Assembly (NCBI GenBank): GCA_938743325.2 | Contig: OW568861.1 | Span: 1,240,001-1,304,000, forward strand | Origin: Pycnococcus provasolii | Taxonomy: Eukaryota > Chlorophyta > Pseudoscourfieldiophyceae > Pseudoscourfieldiales > Pycnococcaceae | DNA length: 64,000 bases | Reading direction: 5' to 3' | Part shown: piece by piece, positions 27,643-43,325 of the stretch | How the letters are laid out: every line of letters starts with the position of its first letter | Position numbering within the stretch: the first letter of the stretch is position 1 | Translations under genes and position numbers: made by a program | Notes under the pieces: model-generated | Databases searched by the model: none | The model's input: only the letters and a program-made list of their open reading frames with translations | Told to the model about the DNA's origin: nothing

Positions 27643-29227
27643 TTAGTGGTATCTTACAAGGCCGTACAATTCTTTCAGCCTGTGCGATAGGAATGGCGGT
27701 TTCCACATCCACGTATCGCAATCTGATGACTTGGCATAATGCCAACATTCACGGCGCGTCGAGTGATCGCCGGTATGCCCCCTCTCGAAAGCCTCTTTTT
27801 TCGCACGCCACACGCTCGGCGGGGTGAGCTCCGCCGGCGCCATAGCTGCGTATGCAACCGCGCGGAAGGAGTCGCGCTCGCCCACGGGCATGGCACCGGC
27901 GTGCGCCAGATCCGACCGCCACAGAATCACGTCACCAGCGCGTACGGGAACGCGCAGTGGCACCAGTCCATCGTCGCGAAGTGTGGCAATCTCGTCGTCA
28001 GTCAGGGGGAACCAGTTCGACCGACCGCGGTACGTGTTTTCCGCGATGCGAGCATGGTGTCGATGACTTCCCGGCCAGCAGAGGAAGCACCCGTCGCCAT
28101 CGTGCTGGTCGAGCAGTGCCGTCGAGCTTTGAATGTACTGCAGGCCAGTTTCAAACGAGCCTTGATCGAAGTGCTCGCCATCCGATGCGCACGGCTTGCC
28201 ACACACGTGCGTCGCACGTTTTCGGAACGGGTGGCGATTGCCCGTGGTGGGTCGCTGGAATGTGAACCCCTCCTTGCTGCAATGCAGCTCGCTTGTTCCA
28301 AAGAGCGGCGTGAAGACGCGATCGGCAAGCTTAACGCGCAGCTCTGAGAAGACCCAGCCTGCACCGTGGCTCTGGAACATGTCGCTGAATGATTTCCAGC
28401 CGGTGTGCGGCCACGGGTCGTCGTCGCCATCCTCTGCTGGATACCACGTGCTTGCGTCATCGCGGCGCACGGCGGGCGATCGCGTCGCTATGTATTCCCA
28501 GAGTCGGTCCATTTCGGCGTCGCACTCCTCCTTGGAGAGGACCGACGGCACGATGCAGTATCCATCTTCGAGAAGTTTTTGTTTCACGTGAGCCATGCAA
28601 GGACGAGACTGCTTCAGGTATGGAACGAGCGCGTCTCGACGTGGCATAGTCTGTGCCTCTATCAAGAGAGGTATGAGGTGAGTGAGCACTTGCGTCGCCC
28701 AGTCGTGCGCTTGCGGGTCTTCGGAAGCCCTCGGTCCTCCCACGTGCAGGCACTGCAGCGGGACTGGGAGATATGCGGCGGCGTCTCTTGCAGCGGCGAG
28801 CGCGTCGTTGTTGTAGGTTAGGCTGCATATGTGCTTGTGAGGCTGCTTTATGCCCTTTGCGTGCCTCACAGCGGCGAGCGTGGTTGGCGGGAGCGTCTTG
28901 CGCGTGCTTATGATGAGCGTAGCTTGTGATGCTTCGACGTTGCGTCGCGTTCTCTCCGCCGGGTCGGCGGATGCGGTGGGTGTGAAGTACGCGTGGTACG
29001 CTGCGGGAATCTGTTCGTCTTCCGCCCAGTAGTTTCGCGGACAGAAACTTCTCTTGAGGTGGAGGACGCCGTGCGACAGAGCGACTTGCATGACGGCGCG
29101 ATCCACACCCGTCTGCCCACCCGTGACGATTGCGAGGAGCTGTGACGATGGAGAGGTGGTGGTGGTGGTGGTGACTGCTGAGCCTGAGCCTGAGCCGGAG
29201 GAGTCACACGTCGGCAGCATCGTCGTC
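27643..29227 (-). CDS. Fusion: molybdenum-carrier-like (SLOG) domain plus phytanoyl-CoA-dioxygenase-like domain
   Basis: The frame runs from an ATG at 29229 and encodes 528 residues. Residues ~32-195 resemble the putative molybdenum-carrier/SLOG Rossmann family (AIVTGGQTGVDRA, then NYWAEDEQIP and TLIISTR). Residues ~205-470 look like a PhyH-type Fe(II)/2-oxoglutarate oxygenase: HFD at ~353-355 (iron ligands), LAHAG with the distal His ~443, and Arg ~456 for 2-oxoglutarate. All key residues are present, so the oxygenase could be active; its substrate is unknown. SLOG proteins bind nucleotide-related ligands, so the pair could modify or sense such a molecule, which is inference. A TTAGGG array lies ~110 bp upstream. 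Confidence 0.8.
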
Positions 29228-29229
29228 AT

Positions 29230-37857: not shown

Positions 37858-38120
37858 TACTATTGTTGTTATTGGCTTTTATTCAATTGTGTGTTGTTGT
37901 CGGCGGGAAGAAAACAAAACTCCGTCTTAGTTGAGTAACACATGTGTCTTTATGTATTGTGGCACCTCGGGATGATTTCCTTCCCAGTTGGGTAAACCTG
38001 GATAGTTACAGAAATCCGGGGTTACTTCCCAGTTGGGGGTTTTGGCTGTTCGGCGTATCCCGTTTAGGGGTTCACCTCACAGTTCGCTCTAGCCATGCAA
38101 CAAATTTGGTTACTCATCAA

Positions 38121-38861
38121 TCAAAGGACAACAGGACGACCGGGCCACCAAACCGAAACGTCCCTCTTCTCGCACGTCGCGACAACCTTGGGTTGCGGCT
38201 TGGACGAGACCGCAATCACCTTCTTGACGACGTAGTCGCCGAAGTCCGCCTCCTCCTGAAAAAGGTCATCGTACAGGAGAACCTGTCCAAGCCCATGCGC
38301 GAGGTTCTTCGCCTTCGTCTTCGTCTCGACGAGCACCGCGGTCTTCTTCGTCGCATTCACGAAGACGATGTCGCACTTGTGCTTACAAGCCTGATGCGTC
38401 GACGAGCCGGCCGTGGAGAACGGGTACTCGAGGTGTACCTCCCACTCGTTCACGGCACCTCCCACGGCCGACTTGAGTCGGAACGCTTCGATGTAGCTTT
38501 CGGTCGCCTTCAACGTCGGCGCGTTCGTGCATGTCTGTGCACCCTTCGTCCACGTGGTCACCTTGGGCCGCGCGCACGTGGGTCGCGCACTCAAATTGAA
38601 CGACAGACCTTTCGCCAACCTGTTGGCGCGTGTCCTGTTTGTAGGACAGACACGCCAACCTTGTTGCTCATCATCATCATCATCGTCGTCGTCGTCGTCG
38701 TCATCATCATCATCGTCGTCGTCATCATCATCATCATCGTCGTCGGCGGCGGCGTCGAGGCGCGCCTCATAAGCACGTTGCGCCTTCTCGCTCAGGTACC
38801 CGAGCTCATACCTTTGCTCCAAGCTCAGAGGCGCCGCCAAGCCCGTCTCCTCGCCTGCCAT
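38121..38861 (-). CDS. PD-(D/E)XK nuclease-fold protein with a long Asp tract
   Basis: The ATG at 38861 gives 246 residues. After a short N-terminus comes a run of more than 25 Asp encoded by an ATC/GTC microsatellite. The C-terminal ~110 residues fit a PD-(D/E)XK restriction-type core: an Asp in CDIVFV, then VETKT (the E-x-K motif) on the next strand, and a following Gln in GQVLLYD. These are the usual metal-binding and catalytic positions, so nuclease activity is possible but not shown. The MULE target-site duplication lies only 13 bp upstream of the ATG, so the element has displaced this gene's original promoter region. Confidence 0.6.
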   Translation of the reverse strand: MAGEETGLAAPLSLEQRYELGYLSEKAQRAYEARLDAAADDDDDDDDDDDDDDDDDDDDDDDDDEQQGWRVCPTNRTRANRLAKGLSFNLSARPTCARPKVTTWTKGAQTCTNAPTLKATESYIEAFRLKSAVGGAVNEWEVHLEYPFSTAGSSTHQACKHKCDIVFVNATKKTAVLVETKTKAKNLAHGLGQVLLYDDLFQEEADFGDYVVKKVIAVSSKPQPKVVATCEKRDVSVWWPGRPVVL

Positions 38862-38873
38862 AGATAGAAAAAT

Positions 38874-38883
38874 GAGAATTATG
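38874..38883. repeat. Left target-site duplication of the MULE
   Basis: GAGAATTATG, in direct orientation and identical to 42413-42422. Ten base pairs lies within the 8-11-bp range typical of Mutator-like elements. Confidence 0.85.
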
Positions 38884-38910
38884 GAGAAAAAGACAAAGTA
38901 TAGGTGTTTT
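38884..38910 (+). repeat. Left terminal inverted repeat of the MULE
   Basis: It begins GAGAAAAAGAC and continues to GTATAGGTGTTTT. It differs from the right end at one of 27 positions (T for C before GTTTT). A second, weaker copy of GACAAAGTATAGGTG follows at 38923-38937. Confidence 0.85.
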
Positions 38911-38936
38911 TTCGGAATTTTGGACAAAGTATAGGT

Positions 38937-38969
38937 GTTAGGGTTACTGCTAGGGTTATGGTTAGGGTT
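38937..38969 (+). repeat. Degenerate TTAGGG array inside the MULE left end
   Basis: GTTAGGG, TAGGGTTATGG and TTAGGG runs with interruptions, about 76 bp upstream of the PD-(D/E)XK-like ATG and ~53 bp inside the element. Whether it arrived with the element or arose later cannot be told. Confidence 0.75.
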
Positions 38970-39056
38970 TCGTTTTACTCAAATCTTAATTCACCTCACC
39001 GACGCGTCGTCAAACCAGTACTGTACCCTTCGTTCCTTCCCTTCCCTACCCATCAG

Positions 39057-39812
39057 CTAGCGCAACTGCGAGTTCGTCTGCGTCTGCGTCTGCGTCTGCG
39101 TCATCTCAACTGAGCTCTTGTGGCGTTTTTTGAGGCTCTTCCTTCCTTTTTTCTTCTTTCGTGGTGGTGCCACGATGGATTCCATATTCGGCGGCGCAGT
39201 CATGAGGTGCAGCTCGATCGGTAGCGTCGGTAGGCTCACTACCGTCGCGTTCAACGCGGCAGACACGCACGAACGCTTGTGGAAATCGGCGACGAAGTTC
39301 TCCACGAAAGTGGAATACGTGTAGCCTTTGTCATGCGCAGCTTTCCACGAGTGCGGACAACCACATGCATGCTCCAAGGTGAGCTTGCAAGCACACGAGA
39401 TGCCTTCAGGCAAGAACTTCACGATGTACGGAGCCGAACCTGCGAATACCGTCGCGATGTTCTGCGCCGTCCACTCCACGCGCATGGGTGCTGCAGATTG
39501 GATATGCCCGGCAAGCATGGCGTTTGCACGGTCCGTCAAGAACAAGGAACTGTTCGCGATGCGCTCGCGAAGCAATGCCAGCCGCGTGTGCGCGCGACGC
39601 AAGCAACTGTCAAAGAAGAACGTCGGCGGGAGAAACCTTGCACTGGTTCTTGTTTTCGACGCCGCCGCATTCTCGCTCTCCGCAAATTGAGAAGTGAGTC
39701 TACCGTGCAACCCGAAGCCAGCCTCGTGCGCGCCCATCACGGTCCACTTCGCAGGGTCAAGATTCTTGAGGTACGCGTGTGCGGTGTTGTTCTCTTCCTG
39801 AAGTGTGGCCAT
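39057..39812 (-). CDS. MULE transposase C-terminal part with SWIM zinc finger
   Basis: The ATG at 39812 gives 251 residues; the frame is open further up only from a TTG. The start (AYLKNLDPAKWTVM, then GRLTSQFAESENAA) matches the end of the MULE DDE domain, where the last catalytic Glu lies in a TSxxxES-N context. A SWIM finger follows (Cys140, Cys142, Cys152, His154: CAC ... CPH). The tail is a basic, nuclear-localisation-like KKKKGRKSLKKRHK segment and Thr-Gln repeats. The first two catalytic Asp of the DDE core are missing, so this piece alone should not transpose. It is divergent from the frame starting at 39845, 32 bp away. Confidence 0.7.
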   Translation of the reverse strand: MATLQEENNTAHAYLKNLDPAKWTVMGAHEAGFGLHGRLTSQFAESENAAASKTRTSARFLPPTFFFDSCLRRAHTRLALLRERIANSSLFLTDRANAMLAGHIQSAAPMRVEWTAQNIATVFAGSAPYIVKFLPEGISCACKLTLEHACGCPHSWKAAHDKGYTYSTFVENFVADFHKRSCVSAALNATVVSLPTLPIELHLMTAPPNMESIVAPPRKKKKGRKSLKKRHKSSVEMTQTQTQTQTNSQLR

Positions 39813-39844
39813 GTTCACATGAGAGCCGTAAGCGCGACGCCGCG

Positions 39845-40708
39845 ATGGAATGCCAGACCAGTGAGGAAGTGGAATGCAGTGGACGTTTGAGCGTTGCGGA
39901 TGTCCAAAAGGAGCAGTCGTCGAAGTTCCGTGACGCCTTGGAAAGCTCGATGGGAGATGCGCTTCCAAGGCACTTTCGTGAGCGCGTTGGACGCGGCGAG
40001 GAGGAAAGCTCTACGCTGATGGTTGTGCAGAAGGTTGCATTTGAGGGCGTGACGCGCTTTGAAGATCGATCCATGAAGGCGATTGGCATGAGCTTTCAAG
40101 AAGTTGCCGTGCGAATGCTCGTCAACGTTCAGTACGATTGCATCCTCCAGCAGCTGTTCATGTCCATCGGCATTGACGTCGAGTGGGACGTGGAGGACGT
40201 CTCAAGGTACGCCGCGCCATTCGAGAAGTTAACTTTCTGGGACGTGATGGCTCGCGCTCGTGCCGATGGAAAGATTGCGTTGGGCTATTATGACATTTTG
40301 CTTCACGAGGATGGCGAGCGCGAGCCGATGACGTACCACGTAAATCCCAGGTCATCCTCGAGATTAGGGATCACCGCTGCCGGCTGGGCGCTAATCCGAG
40401 CGAGGCGTCTGAAGAAGCGTGCTGAGCAGGGGAAAACTGCTGATGAGCAGGAGTTGGAAGGGTCCGTAGAAGAAAGGGAGAGTCTAGGAAAGTACAGCCG
40501 GATGGCTGTCGTGCCGCCGCTGTGGATGGCGTTGCAAAAATTCTTGAGGAAGCGAAGAAGAGAGTCCAAGGAAGTATCCAAGTCTGCGGATGCGACGATG
40601 ACAAAGCCACGCGCCACAGTTCCGTCCGTGTCCCGCGATGAGGTGCGTGTTTGGAATCGAGGCGATGGGCGAACGCGGCTGATTGTGCTCGCTAGCAAAA
40701 CCAAATAA
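39845..40708 (+). CDS. Internal MULE frame, possibly a captured host gene fragment
   Basis: The first ATG gives 287 residues, opposite in strand to the other two genes of the element and lying where the missing transposase core would be. The middle (residues ~95-185: SFQEVAVRMLVNVQYDCILQQL, then TFWDVMARARADGKIALGYY and YHVNPRSSSRLG) looks like a cytoplasmic regulatory region of an ion-channel or transporter-type protein, perhaps a CASTOR/POLLUX or RCK-like segment. The call is weak. The N-terminus is Glu/Ser-rich, the C-terminus basic. MULEs are known to carry copied host gene pieces (Pack-MULEs), which this arrangement would fit. Confidence 0.5.
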   Translation: MECQTSEEVECSGRLSVADVQKEQSSKFRDALESSMGDALPRHFRERVGRGEEESSTLMVVQKVAFEGVTRFEDRSMKAIGMSFQEVAVRMLVNVQYDCILQQLFMSIGIDVEWDVEDVSRYAAPFEKLTFWDVMARARADGKIALGYYDILLHEDGEREPMTYHVNPRSSSRLGITAAGWALIRARRLKKRAEQGKTADEQELEGSVEERESLGKYSRMAVVPPLWMALQKFLRKRRRESKEVSKSADATMTKPRATVPSVSRDEVRVWNRGDGRTRLIVLASKTK

Positions 40709-40808
40709 ATGGTGTAAAGTACATTACATGATTGCAAGTCTCGAGGATGATGGTTGCTTGGTTGCTTGGTTACTTGGTTGCTCCCCCTCCCTGCCCTACC
40801 GGCCTACC

Positions 40809-42146
40809 CTAGGCCTTGTAGATGGAGATTGTGTTCCTCTTCTCCGGGGGGCATTCGCCGGTCCCCCAGTGGTAGTAATCGGTGAGGTTCTTGGCTTTGA
40901 GGATATCGCCGGGTGAAACCTCGATTGTTTCAACAGGACCCAATTTCGTGTTTTTCCACTTTTTACAGTAGAAGGTTCCCTTGTTCAAGTAGAGAAGGTA
41001 CACCTCGCCAATATTGTTTTTATCTTTATGAGGTGGGGTGTTTCCACGGCGGTTGAAGGCAGTTGTGGCATCGCAGTTGTAAGTTGTTTTGACAACGTTG
41101 AAAAATGTTTCAAGGGCTTGTTGGGCTTGTTTTCCATTTTTGCGTGGCTCTTGGTATACTTCATTGCAGTGCGCCCTTGCTGGGGAAGAACGTGGTAGCT
41201 TGCCGTAGGCAAAGTTTCCTTCGATTTTGGTGGTTTTGCATGTGGCGTTCATTATGAGATTCACCTCATGTTCGAATTGGTTTAAATCCAATTGTCCAAT
41301 TTTCTCCACCAGAGGTGCTGGTGCTGCTGGTGCTGCTGGTGCTGCTGGTGCTGCTGGTGGTGGTGGTGGTGGTGGTGGTGGTGGTGGTGGTGGTGGTGGT
41401 GGTAAAGTTACCGTGCTCAGCTTGAAGACAGCACCTGGGTTTGCAGCGATAGCTGCGTCTCCCCACAATCGTAGCATGCTAAACGACGATTCATATTCCG
41501 CGTCTAAGAGATCGAGTACGATGTTTCGTGCTCGATCGAGCATGCGGGTGCTCGGTGGTAGTGCGTGCGGATAGTGCTGGTGTACGAGCGTGCCGAGTTC
41601 CTCCGCCGAGATCCCTCTGTTCGACGTCACGTTCACCCGGACGACCTCCGCGATCTGTGCAGCAGTGAGTTGTAGTTGTCCCCCGCAGTTGGAGTGGTCA
41701 GTCAAACTCGCCACACGCCATACCTCCGATGTGTTGACGCGGCGAATCACCGCGCCTCCTGGGCATGCACATGGTTTGAGCACTTGCTTCTTCATGGCGG
41801 ATCCCTTGGCCATGCTACGAGCTTCTGCGGTCGCCTTCGCGTCAATGGCATCCTTGCATATAAAGTATACCGCCCGCGCGTTTGATGACGACGTGTTTTG
41901 CACTAGCTTCTTCCCGAGCGATGTTGAGTACGTTGTGACGGCATTATGGGCCTCTTCCTTCGACGCGAAGACCTCGCCGCGCTTCAATGTCGGAGCCGCA
42001 CTACTCGTCGTTGCTGCCGGGCACTTGGTGACAACCTCGTTCACCTCGTGCTCTACGGCATCCTCTTGCTCGTCATCGGAGCTATAGCCATCGTCGGTTG
42101 ACGAGTCATAGTCGAGGTTTCCCTCGTCTTCACTCACGTTCATCAT
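40809..42146 (-). CDS. MuDR-type DNA-binding domain fused to an Fe(II)/2-oxoglutarate dioxygenase
   Basis: The ATG at 42146 gives 445 residues. After an acidic N-terminus, residues ~57-160 match the MULE transposase N-terminal domain with a WRKY-GCM1-type zinc site (CAC...W.VASLTDHSNC). Residues ~165-250 match the helical linker that precedes the DDE core (SMLRLWGDAAIAANPGAVFKL). There the transposase stops. A poly-Pro/(AAP)n linker leads to residues ~285-445, a double-stranded beta-helix dioxygenase with HKD (His373, Asp375), distal His426 in YYHWG and Arg437. The HKDKNN and PGD patterns recall TET/JBP or AlkB-like enzymes, which oxidise bases; the subfamily is uncertain. It could target oxidation to the element's ends, but that is inference. 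Confidence 0.75.
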   Translation of the reverse strand: MMNVSEDEGNLDYDSSTDDGYSSDDEQEDAVEHEVNEVVTKCPAATTSSAAPTLKRGEVFASKEEAHNAVTTYSTSLGKKLVQNTSSSNARAVYFICKDAIDAKATAEARSMAKGSAMKKQVLKPCACPGGAVIRRVNTSEVWRVASLTDHSNCGGQLQLTAAQIAEVVRVNVTSNRGISAEELGTLVHQHYPHALPPSTRMLDRARNIVLDLLDAEYESSFSMLRLWGDAAIAANPGAVFKLSTVTLPPPPPPPPPPPPPPPPAAPAAPAAPAAPAPLVEKIGQLDLNQFEHEVNLIMNATCKTTKIEGNFAYGKLPRSSPARAHCNEVYQEPRKNGKQAQQALETFFNVVKTTYNCDATTAFNRRGNTPPHKDKNNIGEVYLLYLNKGTFYCKKWKNTKLGPVETIEVSPGDILKAKNLTDYYHWGTGECPPEKRNTISIYKA

Positions 42147-42385
42147 CAACTAGCTGCCTAATGGGATGGCGGGAACTTGTTCAGTTCAGTTGGCGGGAAC
42201 GGGATGGCGTGAACGGCTGGGACAGTTTGTCCCAACAGTCAGGAAAGCGCCCTGCCGTCCTTGTAGAGTGCTAAGGTTAGTCTCGTGGTGTCGGGGGGAC
42301 TCCCTCTAGAACGGTAATAAACAGTGTAATTGAGGGCGCCTATACTTTGGTTTGGAGACGCCTATACCTTGTCTTTTTTTCACCA

Positions 42386-42412
42386 AAAACGCCTATACTT
42401 TGTCTTTTTCTC
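42386..42412 (-). repeat. Right terminal inverted repeat of the MULE
   Basis: Inverted complement of 38884-38910 with one mismatch. Two further degenerate copies of the CGCCTATACTTTG unit lie inward at about 42336-42350 and 42357-42377. Confidence 0.85.
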
Positions 42413-42422
42413 GAGAATTATG
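42413..42422. repeat. Right target-site duplication of the MULE
   Basis: GAGAATTATG, identical and co-oriented with 38874-38883. Confidence 0.85.
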
Positions 42423-42479
42423 TGATCTGACCCAGGGCCAGGGGACCTCCTGTCCCCACAATAAAATCTCAAGTGGGGT

Positions 42480-43325
42480 TTGTTTCACCAATCAACAAAC
42501 AAACCCCTACGATAGTCAGCGCCTGCTCATCATCAATCATGAACGTCGCGCGGTGCCCGTTCGCACAGCCTCTGGTGAGCCGATTCGCGTGCGTAACTTT
42601 TGCGGTGCGCGTGCACGACATCTCGAACATGTGATTTGGCCACAACTTCGCCGCCCTTGGAGTTGAGGCGCGCGAGTGCAGCAGAAGCGGAGGCGACGCT
42701 CGCAAACGCGGCGGCAGATGCGGATGCGGCAGAGGATGCGCCTGTTCGGGCTTGTGGGAGGAGGTGGTGCGAGCAGCACGACGCTGCGACCGGAGGAGCT
42801 GCGGCAGTGCAGGTTCGCGTCGCCTGATTCGGCGGAGCTTCAGCTTTCGATCAATGTTGGGATGAACGGCGCGCGGTTGAGCCACAACCATGCAAGGCAG
42901 TACACGTACGTGCGGCAGACGCTCTACCTTTGGCGCGAGATTATGGGCGACATGTTCCGGCTTTGGTGCCTGGCGGAGGACGACCTGCTGAAGAGGAACA
43001 TGATGATCTTCTGGCACCGCTCTGCCGTGCCAAACACGCTCTCGGCGTACGCGCTCACCTTGGCGTCTGACCGGCACGCACGCTCCACCTCCTCCACGAC
43101 GCGAATCAGCGGGCTCAAGATGCGAGGCACCTGCGTGTACTTGTCGATGAACATCAGCGCGTTCGGCACGTTGTGGTCGCCAAGGTGCACGGCGGAACTT
43201 TCCACCCAGCCGCCGCCAAGACGGTGCATGCACCGGTTCAGGATGCCGTGCATCGCCGACGACAACTTCGGGGCAGCCTGCACGCGATTCAACCCTTGCC
43301 CCGTGTCCGTAAGCCACTGACCATC
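42480..43325 (+). pseudogene. Rearranged DUF2009 gene remnant with an inverted segment
   Basis: On the plus strand, 42776-42990 encodes a strongly DUF2009-like stretch (RPEELRQCRFASPDSAELQLSI, GMNGARLSHNHARQYTYV, FRLWCLAEDDLL). The part that should follow (DTGQGLNRVQAAPK, HLGDHNVPNALMFIDKYTQV, then ERACRSDAKVSAYAESVFG) is instead on the minus strand, reading from about 43322 down to ~42995. So about 330 bp is inverted in place. Upstream pieces (42480-42775) lie in other frames. DUF2009 proteins are widespread in eukaryotes with unknown function. The plus-strand frame 42676-43320 and minus-strand frame 42469-43380 both run through the junction and are not real proteins. Confidence 0.75.

Follow-up and report, generated by a model that had tools for sequence, protein, structure and literature searches.

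Plant Pack-MULE and Pack-TYPE transposons are described, in the relevant passages of one account (PMC8903248), as having Mutator-like element (MULE) ends, a target-site duplication and captured gene fragments and as missing the segment that holds the catalytic-type Asp residues. The same passages derive Pack-TYPE elements from tandem insertion followed by remobilization and give some of them material from several loci; transduplication is reviewed in part of another article (PMC13317346). A second kind of precedent pairs a DNA transposon with a putative Fe(II)/2-oxoglutarate (Fe/2OG) oxygenase. According to sections of PMC12730594, fungal transposons of several groups (Dileera, hAT, EnSpm, Kyakuja, Helitron, and others) carry TET/JBP genes, which in the cases of its section 4.1 are separate from the transposase gene; its main text has no word beginning with "Mutator," "MULE," or "fusion." In Arabidopsis, VANDAL elements encode VANC, a sequence-directed antisilencing protein with tandem-repeat targets (PMC5735166), and orchid Ty3/Gypsy elements have gained an m6A demethylase domain (PMC9289625). 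A further 2OG dioxygenase, ICU11, associates with a Polycomb complex (PMC7368280) and is not encoded by a transposable element. Among the papers listed by searches of an open-access library, which leaves most subscription journals outside and so gives weak evidence of absence, we found no described fusion of a MULE transposase with a dioxygenase.

We analyzed a stretch of 64,000 nucleotides of the Pycnococcus provasolii genome (the window, on contig C1) and describe a transposable element in it that shares the MULE-type ends, target-site duplication, captured fragments and missing catalytic-type Asp segment of plant Pack-MULEs. Unlike plant Pack-MULEs, it has a captured domain in frame with a residual transposase N terminus, and its two ends come from two MULE subfamilies, here called MULE A and MULE B. 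It differs from the fungal TET/JBP transposons in that its oxygenase-like domain is fused to the transposase part and has no match to the TET/JBP profiles. The orchid case, also a transposable element that acquired a demethylase domain, concerns a retrotransposon and an RNA demethylase, with no transposase fusion. Judged by its description, VANC would be the closest functional parallel if the protein described here acted on its own element.

The fusion open reading frame (ORF) occupies positions 40809..42146 on the minus strand and contains no stop across 445 amino acids (aa). Its transposase N-terminal part (residues 1 to 248; 41403..42146, minus) is of the MULE B type and is recognized by homology to MULE proteins of the same genome. 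A linker follows (residues 249 to 279; 41310..41402, minus), composed of a Pro run from residue 249 and an AAP run from residue 265, and then a 166-aa dioxygenase-like domain with an HxD...H...R arrangement (P0002, residues 280 to 445; 40809..41309, minus). The linker has simple-sequence matches at other places in the genome. A second copy of the fusion, 99.7% identical, lies on contig C13; stop to stop it measures 447 aa versus 446 aa in the window, and the copies differ by one codon of the repeat. Because the fusion is present on two contigs with different flanks, an assembly artifact is unlikely, and at the sequence level the joining of a transposase N terminus to an HxD...H...R domain is real.

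Over approximately 190 aa, the N terminus is 63% identical to the transposase frames of the MULE A elements on C4, C15, and C25, which are long and open (733 to 741 aa, stop to stop). It is 42% identical to MULE frames on C6, C8, C13, and C18 (765 aa), and a 70-aa stretch on C38 is 49% identical. A Pfam scan of one representative per group found the MULE domain PF10551 in both (C25 for the 63% group, E = 5.8e-13; C6 for the 42% group, E = 1.1e-13). In the alignment with MULE A, NPGAVFKLSTVTLP of the fusion corresponds to NPGAIFKFNTVTLP, about 30 residues ahead of the MULE A motif AMDG, which we take to hold the first catalytic Asp at the opening of the DDE core, and similarity stops after STVTLP. 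The fusion protein leaves the MULE alignment before AMDG and has no match to PF10551; it is thus without a MULE/DDE catalytic domain. These results agree with the original prediction, made from the DNA letters, of an uninterrupted fusion in which a transposase N terminus continues to a point just ahead of the DDE core and passes through a Pro/Ala linker into a second domain. The WRKY-GCM1/MuDR-type label attached to that N terminus found no backing, as none of the WRKY, FLYWCH, and MuDR Pfam DNA-binding models matched P0001, P0006, or P0007. Cys97, Cys128, His151, and Cys154 are invariant across the three aligned MULE proteins, and a zinc finger is therefore possible in this part of the fusion.

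That the ORF is element encoded, as had also been proposed, is borne out by its position inside a mobile unit of 3,529 bp (38884-42412); the coordinates given for the ORF were right, and the unit that moves is wider. A perfect 10-bp target-site duplication, GAGAATTATG, flanks the unit in identical copies at 38874..38883 and 42413..42422, within the 8 to 11 bp or so usual for MULEs. The left terminal inverted repeat (38884..38979, plus) is of the MULE A type, with 96 to 99 bp that are 99 to 100% identical to the other-end repeats of the MULEs on C4, C15, and C25. The right terminus (42339..42412, minus), of the MULE B type, contains three CAAAGTATAGG-like repeats at 42339, 42361, and 42392; it pairs with the left end over 62 nucleotides at 79% and is about 80% like the MULE A terminus over 55 to 57 bp. 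The outermost 21 bp of both ends are exact, identical inverted repeats. A search of 32.3 Mb found this 21-bp terminus at 10 places, in pairs on C1, C4, C15, and C25 and singly on C13 and C38; the control pattern, the same letters read backwards, occurs 0 times. Having termini in common with MULE A, whose C25 copy encodes PF10551, the unit belongs among the MULEs. The MULE A elements measure 2,450 to 2,455 bp and each has its own perfect 10-bp duplication; a perfect duplication of this length thus flanks all four elements with both termini. The element has moved recently. On C38 (L021, L043), about 10 kb separates a lone MULE A terminus from an N-terminal remnant; the two are perhaps an element split by another insertion.

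Between its ends the unit is a mosaic joined at 39820 and 40742, and C4/C15/C25, C20, and C13 carry the donor or sister loci. In a blastn comparison of 38000-43000, similarity to the MULE A loci was confined, besides simple-repeat matches in the linker, to 38881-39820 and to the right terminus (42358-42414). The 3' part of MULE A (38884..39820, minus; 98.8 to 98.9% DNA identity to the C4, C15, and C25 MULEs) encodes a transposase C terminus, P0003, of which residues 61 to 317 are 98% identical to the MULE A protein C terminus. P0003 had no Pfam match; its CxC...CxH cluster is presumably SWIM-like. Because the blastn matches end at these limits and P0003 aligns solely to the MULE A C terminus, the segment with AMDG and SDRDKG, which we assume to hold catalytic Asp residues, is absent from the unit. 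Positions 39820..40742 (plus) are the captured 3' end of a CASTOR/POLLUX-like gene, with its stop codon at 40706-40708 and 99.8% identity over 923 bp to a donor or sister locus on C20, where the fragment forms the 3' end of a frame that is open for at least 795 aa. That gene has two Pfam matches that fall short of the curated cutoff, to Slo-like_RCK (E = 1.4e-4) and to Castor_Poll_mid (E = 0.001). The remainder of the unit beyond this fragment is the fusion and the MULE B terminus. With 923 bp of the C20 gene between terminal inverted repeats and the catalytic-type Asp segment missing, the unit has the makeup of a Pack-MULE or Pack-TYPE element. By inspection, about one base is shared at the 39820 join, so end joining or template switching is also allowed there. 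An 88-bp copy (97.7%) of part of the captured C20 gene is present at C9:480062-480149 (L048).

The C13 copy comprises the fusion, 1,705 bp of the C20 gene (99.9%), and one MULE B terminus, and it joins a gene that we take from its protein sequence to be xylulokinase-like at the place where the window copy has MULE A. A second terminus was not found within the 10 kb of C13 examined. At the two amino acid differences in the C20-gene segment, C13 agrees by eye with C20 and not with the window copy, which therefore holds the derived changes. The xylulokinase-like gene (L009, ~7957) seems to be cut short on its 3' side where it meets the C20 fragment. Adjoining this copy is a 562-aa ORF (L009 2832-4520, minus) that contains five nearly identical repeats (HWRNRRSEIIEIGRKRNFEVVTTQDEW...CLECNAVV) and whose C-terminal stretch resembles a nuclease on inspection.

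The domain is found at four places in the genome: in the two fusions on C1 and C13, in a piece on C6, and in a separate gene on C37. The C6 piece (219 bp, 98% DNA identity) lacks the ends of the domain, as expected of a captured fragment. The C37 paralog is about 41 to 44% identical to the fusion domain at the amino acid level, and as a query in the same genome it matches C37, C13, and C1. It keeps H373, D375, H426, and R437 of the fusion domain, together with IEVSPGD, HWG.G, and RN.ISIY. An HxD...H triad and a downstream Arg in this order are the motif typical of the Fe(II)/2OG oxygenase superfamily, and the domain has all four residues. The GC content of the domain part is 0.461 versus 0.565 for the N terminus. 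Upstream of the C37 paralog (L025 1495-2586, minus), there is by inspection an apparent exon with a 209-aa frame, seemingly joined through a short intron of TAACCC-like repeats.

Profile searches placed the domain in no known family. Across Pfam, PHROGs, NCBIfam, and PDB sequences, no dioxygenase profile matched, and the best E value of any family was 0.076, at chance level. The chance-level matches were UPF0370 (E = 0.098), phrog_4568 (E = 0.27), and two NCBIfam models (E = 0.16) for P0002, Hemopexin (E = 0.076) and phrog_33114 (E = 0.31) for P0004, and two phage portal chains (E = 0.4) for a profile of alignment A2 against PDB. Neither P0002 nor P0004 matched the TET/JBP profiles PF12851 and PF20515, nor the AlkB or prolyl 4-hydroxylase Pfam profiles at E ≤ 10, a range in which HMMER filters remove most matches above E of ~0.1; prolyl hydroxylase fared no better than TET/JBP. 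In the same genome, PF12851 matched C41 alone (E = 2.2e-6, below the curated cutoff), and its control search found the family in 1 of 14 genomes, again below the cutoff; PF20515 had no match in this genome and is uninformative, its control having found 0 of 14. The C41 locus (C41:170222-170446, minus; L066) is a TET/JBP-like frame of 369 aa with HRD, PGD, and HWHG residues. Compared with this frame, the domain scored 12.4, and 7 of 20 shuffles scored higher. A TET/JBP identity was rejected at the sequence level.

Structure prediction, which had been proposed as a check, was run twice and gave no model fit to show the double-stranded beta-helix fold of the Fe(II)/2OG superfamily (pLDDT, 40.5 and 31.1); the first alignment (A1) included a C6 row with unrelated flanks that may have harmed its model. 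Foldseek with the better, still low-confidence model returned a best E of 0.13 for any protein and 0.17 for an Fe/2OG enzyme. The list for this model includes ALKBH5, ALKBH1, AlkB, NO66, PolD, and P3H1 among unrelated proteins, a lead only; the tool warns that matches to low-confidence models are meaningless. Searches for relatives of the domain beyond the P. provasolii genome, the one eukaryotic genome covered, were likewise negative. Three scans of viral_contigs gave 0, 16, and 7 pattern matches and two scans of genome_contigs gave 46 and 27, none of them confirmed (for viral_contigs, by tblastn), and no relative was confirmed in phages (P0002 and P0004) or plasmids (P0002). Diverged relatives may escape the contig scans because short peptide patterns were required. 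The dioxygenase label of the original prediction thus holds for the residues conserved in the paralog and not for any profile. Its further suggestions, a link to TET/JBP or another nucleic acid oxygenase and a base oxidase acting at the element's ends, gained no profile match and no positive evidence beyond those residues and the terminal repeats.

Substitution patterns were examined for constraint on each part. Between the window and C13 fusion ORFs there are three substitutions, all three amino acid changing and none silent, a number without statistical power in which no sign of purifying selection appears. The C6 piece differs from the fusion by five substitutions in three codons, all nonsilent and again without power. 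For the fusion N terminus and MULE A, dN was 0.32 and dS 2.85, a rough estimate with dS saturated. Across 130 codons of the domain compared with C37, first, second, and third positions differ in 68, 47, and 92 cases, respectively, and of 53 identical residues only 19 share their codon in a count that omits Met and Trp; this codon pattern fits constraint at the protein level. Because the C37 paralog keeps HxD...H...R and shows this constraint, it is plausible that the domain is an Fe/2OG enzyme.

With a MULE A end and a MULE B end enclosing the fusion and 923 bp of host gene, we consider it quite probable that the unit is a composite, nonautonomous Mutator-like element of the Pack-MULE/Pack-TYPE kind and that the fusion is a chimera of capture. 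One end comes from MULE A and the other from the diverged MULE B, with a C20-type fragment and the oxygenase-like domain between them, and the domain sits in frame where the MULE B catalytic core would follow. Joint mobilization or aberrant repair of neighboring MULE A and MULE B sequences would have formed the unit. Among the best candidates scored in this assembly, none was a full-length MULE B nearer to the fusion than the MULE A frames at 63%, and we therefore infer that the unit moves in trans through the transposase encoded by MULE A on C4, C15, and C25. The start of the fusion lies about 266 bp inside the right terminus, a spacing similar to the 277 bp found for the start codon in MULE A, so the fusion would probably be read from MULE B's own start and promoter region. 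If made, the protein would most likely retain a transposase affinity for the CAAAGTATAGG repeats at element ends, and the attached domain would probably be a passenger, formerly an Fe/2OG-type enzyme in its source gene. This ordinary account covers the data in hand, and the captured gene fragment in a mosaic of two MULEs, which the original prediction missed, makes accidental capture the simpler explanation. Several observations count against it: both halves look constrained at the protein level before capture, both copies keep an open frame through the joins with catalytic-type residues intact, and the C13 copy has a single recognizable terminus in the 10 kb examined and joins a xylulokinase-like gene, which blurs its origin. 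If the fusion were selected but younger than the substitutions, the pattern would be the same.

One rival explanation is that HxD, H, and R are coincidental and the domain is not an Fe/2OG oxygenase. Neither profiles nor PDB sequences gave a match better than E = 0.07, and the predicted folds were of low confidence, yet all four residues and three further motifs persist between proteins as distant as the fusion and C37, and the low-confidence model did list several Fe/2OG enzymes (best E, 0.17, among matches that the tool calls meaningless); we regard coincidence as possible but doubtful. Alternatively, the fusion could be a truncated-transposase repressor that, lacking a catalytic core, binds element ends in competition with the MULE A transposase, the extra domain being irrelevant. 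The N-terminal part does keep the invariant Cys/Cys/His/Cys after loss of the catalytic-type Asp segment, and the 21-bp outer sequence is common to the unit termini and MULE A; however, the MULE B N terminus differs by 37% from that of MULE A and may therefore miss the MULE A site, and we judge such a repressor unlikely. Splicing out of the linker, or two separate transcript starts, would mean that no fusion protein exists as read. Around the linker, 15 GTR...AG pairs would keep the frame open, including GTAACT at ORF position 736, and the C37 paralog apparently (by inspection) has an intron before GSFGWGELP. Against this, the homologous place in MULE A reads GTCACG, not GT[A/G], the open frame needs no intron, and the spliced forms counted would still link both halves, which leaves this explanation distinctly unlikely.

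The fusion might instead be a working, element-targeted oxygenase whose N terminus docks on the terminal repeats and whose domain oxidizes DNA bases or chromatin proteins, shielding the family from silencing with an effect similar to that of VANC or of the fungal transposon TET enzymes. In its favor are the HxD...H...R residues kept in a paralog at 41 to 44% identity and the placement of CAAAGTATAGG, which with at most one mismatch has six matches in the window, five of them at element ends, against a chance expectation of 0.29. Known precedents are the TET/JBP genes on fungal DNA transposons (PMC12730594, in part) and the transposon-encoded antisilencing factor VANC, whose targets are often tandem repeats (PMC5735166, in part). 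The TET/JBP, AlkB, and other oxygenase profiles without a match, the existence of only two, near-identical copies, and three of three nonsilent substitutions all weigh on the other side, and both the activity and the suggested resemblance to VANC or TET enzymes are very unlikely. The more specific proposal, that a MULE swapped its transposase core for an unclassified Fe/2OG domain and modifies DNA or chromatin at its own ends as a single-chain oxygenase, is highly improbable. The capture chimera that we favor is in itself a recent, well-preserved record of MULEs building new proteins, in which one genome has a donor or sister locus for each of the fusion, the C20 fragment, and the MULE A end. 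Its oxygenase-like domain has no convincing match in the libraries searched, and the locus offers an exact test case of whether a transposon can acquire a DNA-targeted enzyme by such capture.

Two further ORFs of the window deserve mention. A nuclease-like ORF (38121-38861, minus) has its ATG about 12 bp from the target-site duplication; it contains a VETKTK motif, presumably of the PD-(D/E)xK type, and weakly matched HSDR_N_2 (E = 0.16). Elsewhere in the window, a single ORF (27643-29229, minus) encodes both a cpYpsA SLOG domain (E = 5e-27) and a PhyH-type dioxygenase (E = 2e-10) and is by profile a 2OG-oxygenase fusion in the same window as the MULE unit.
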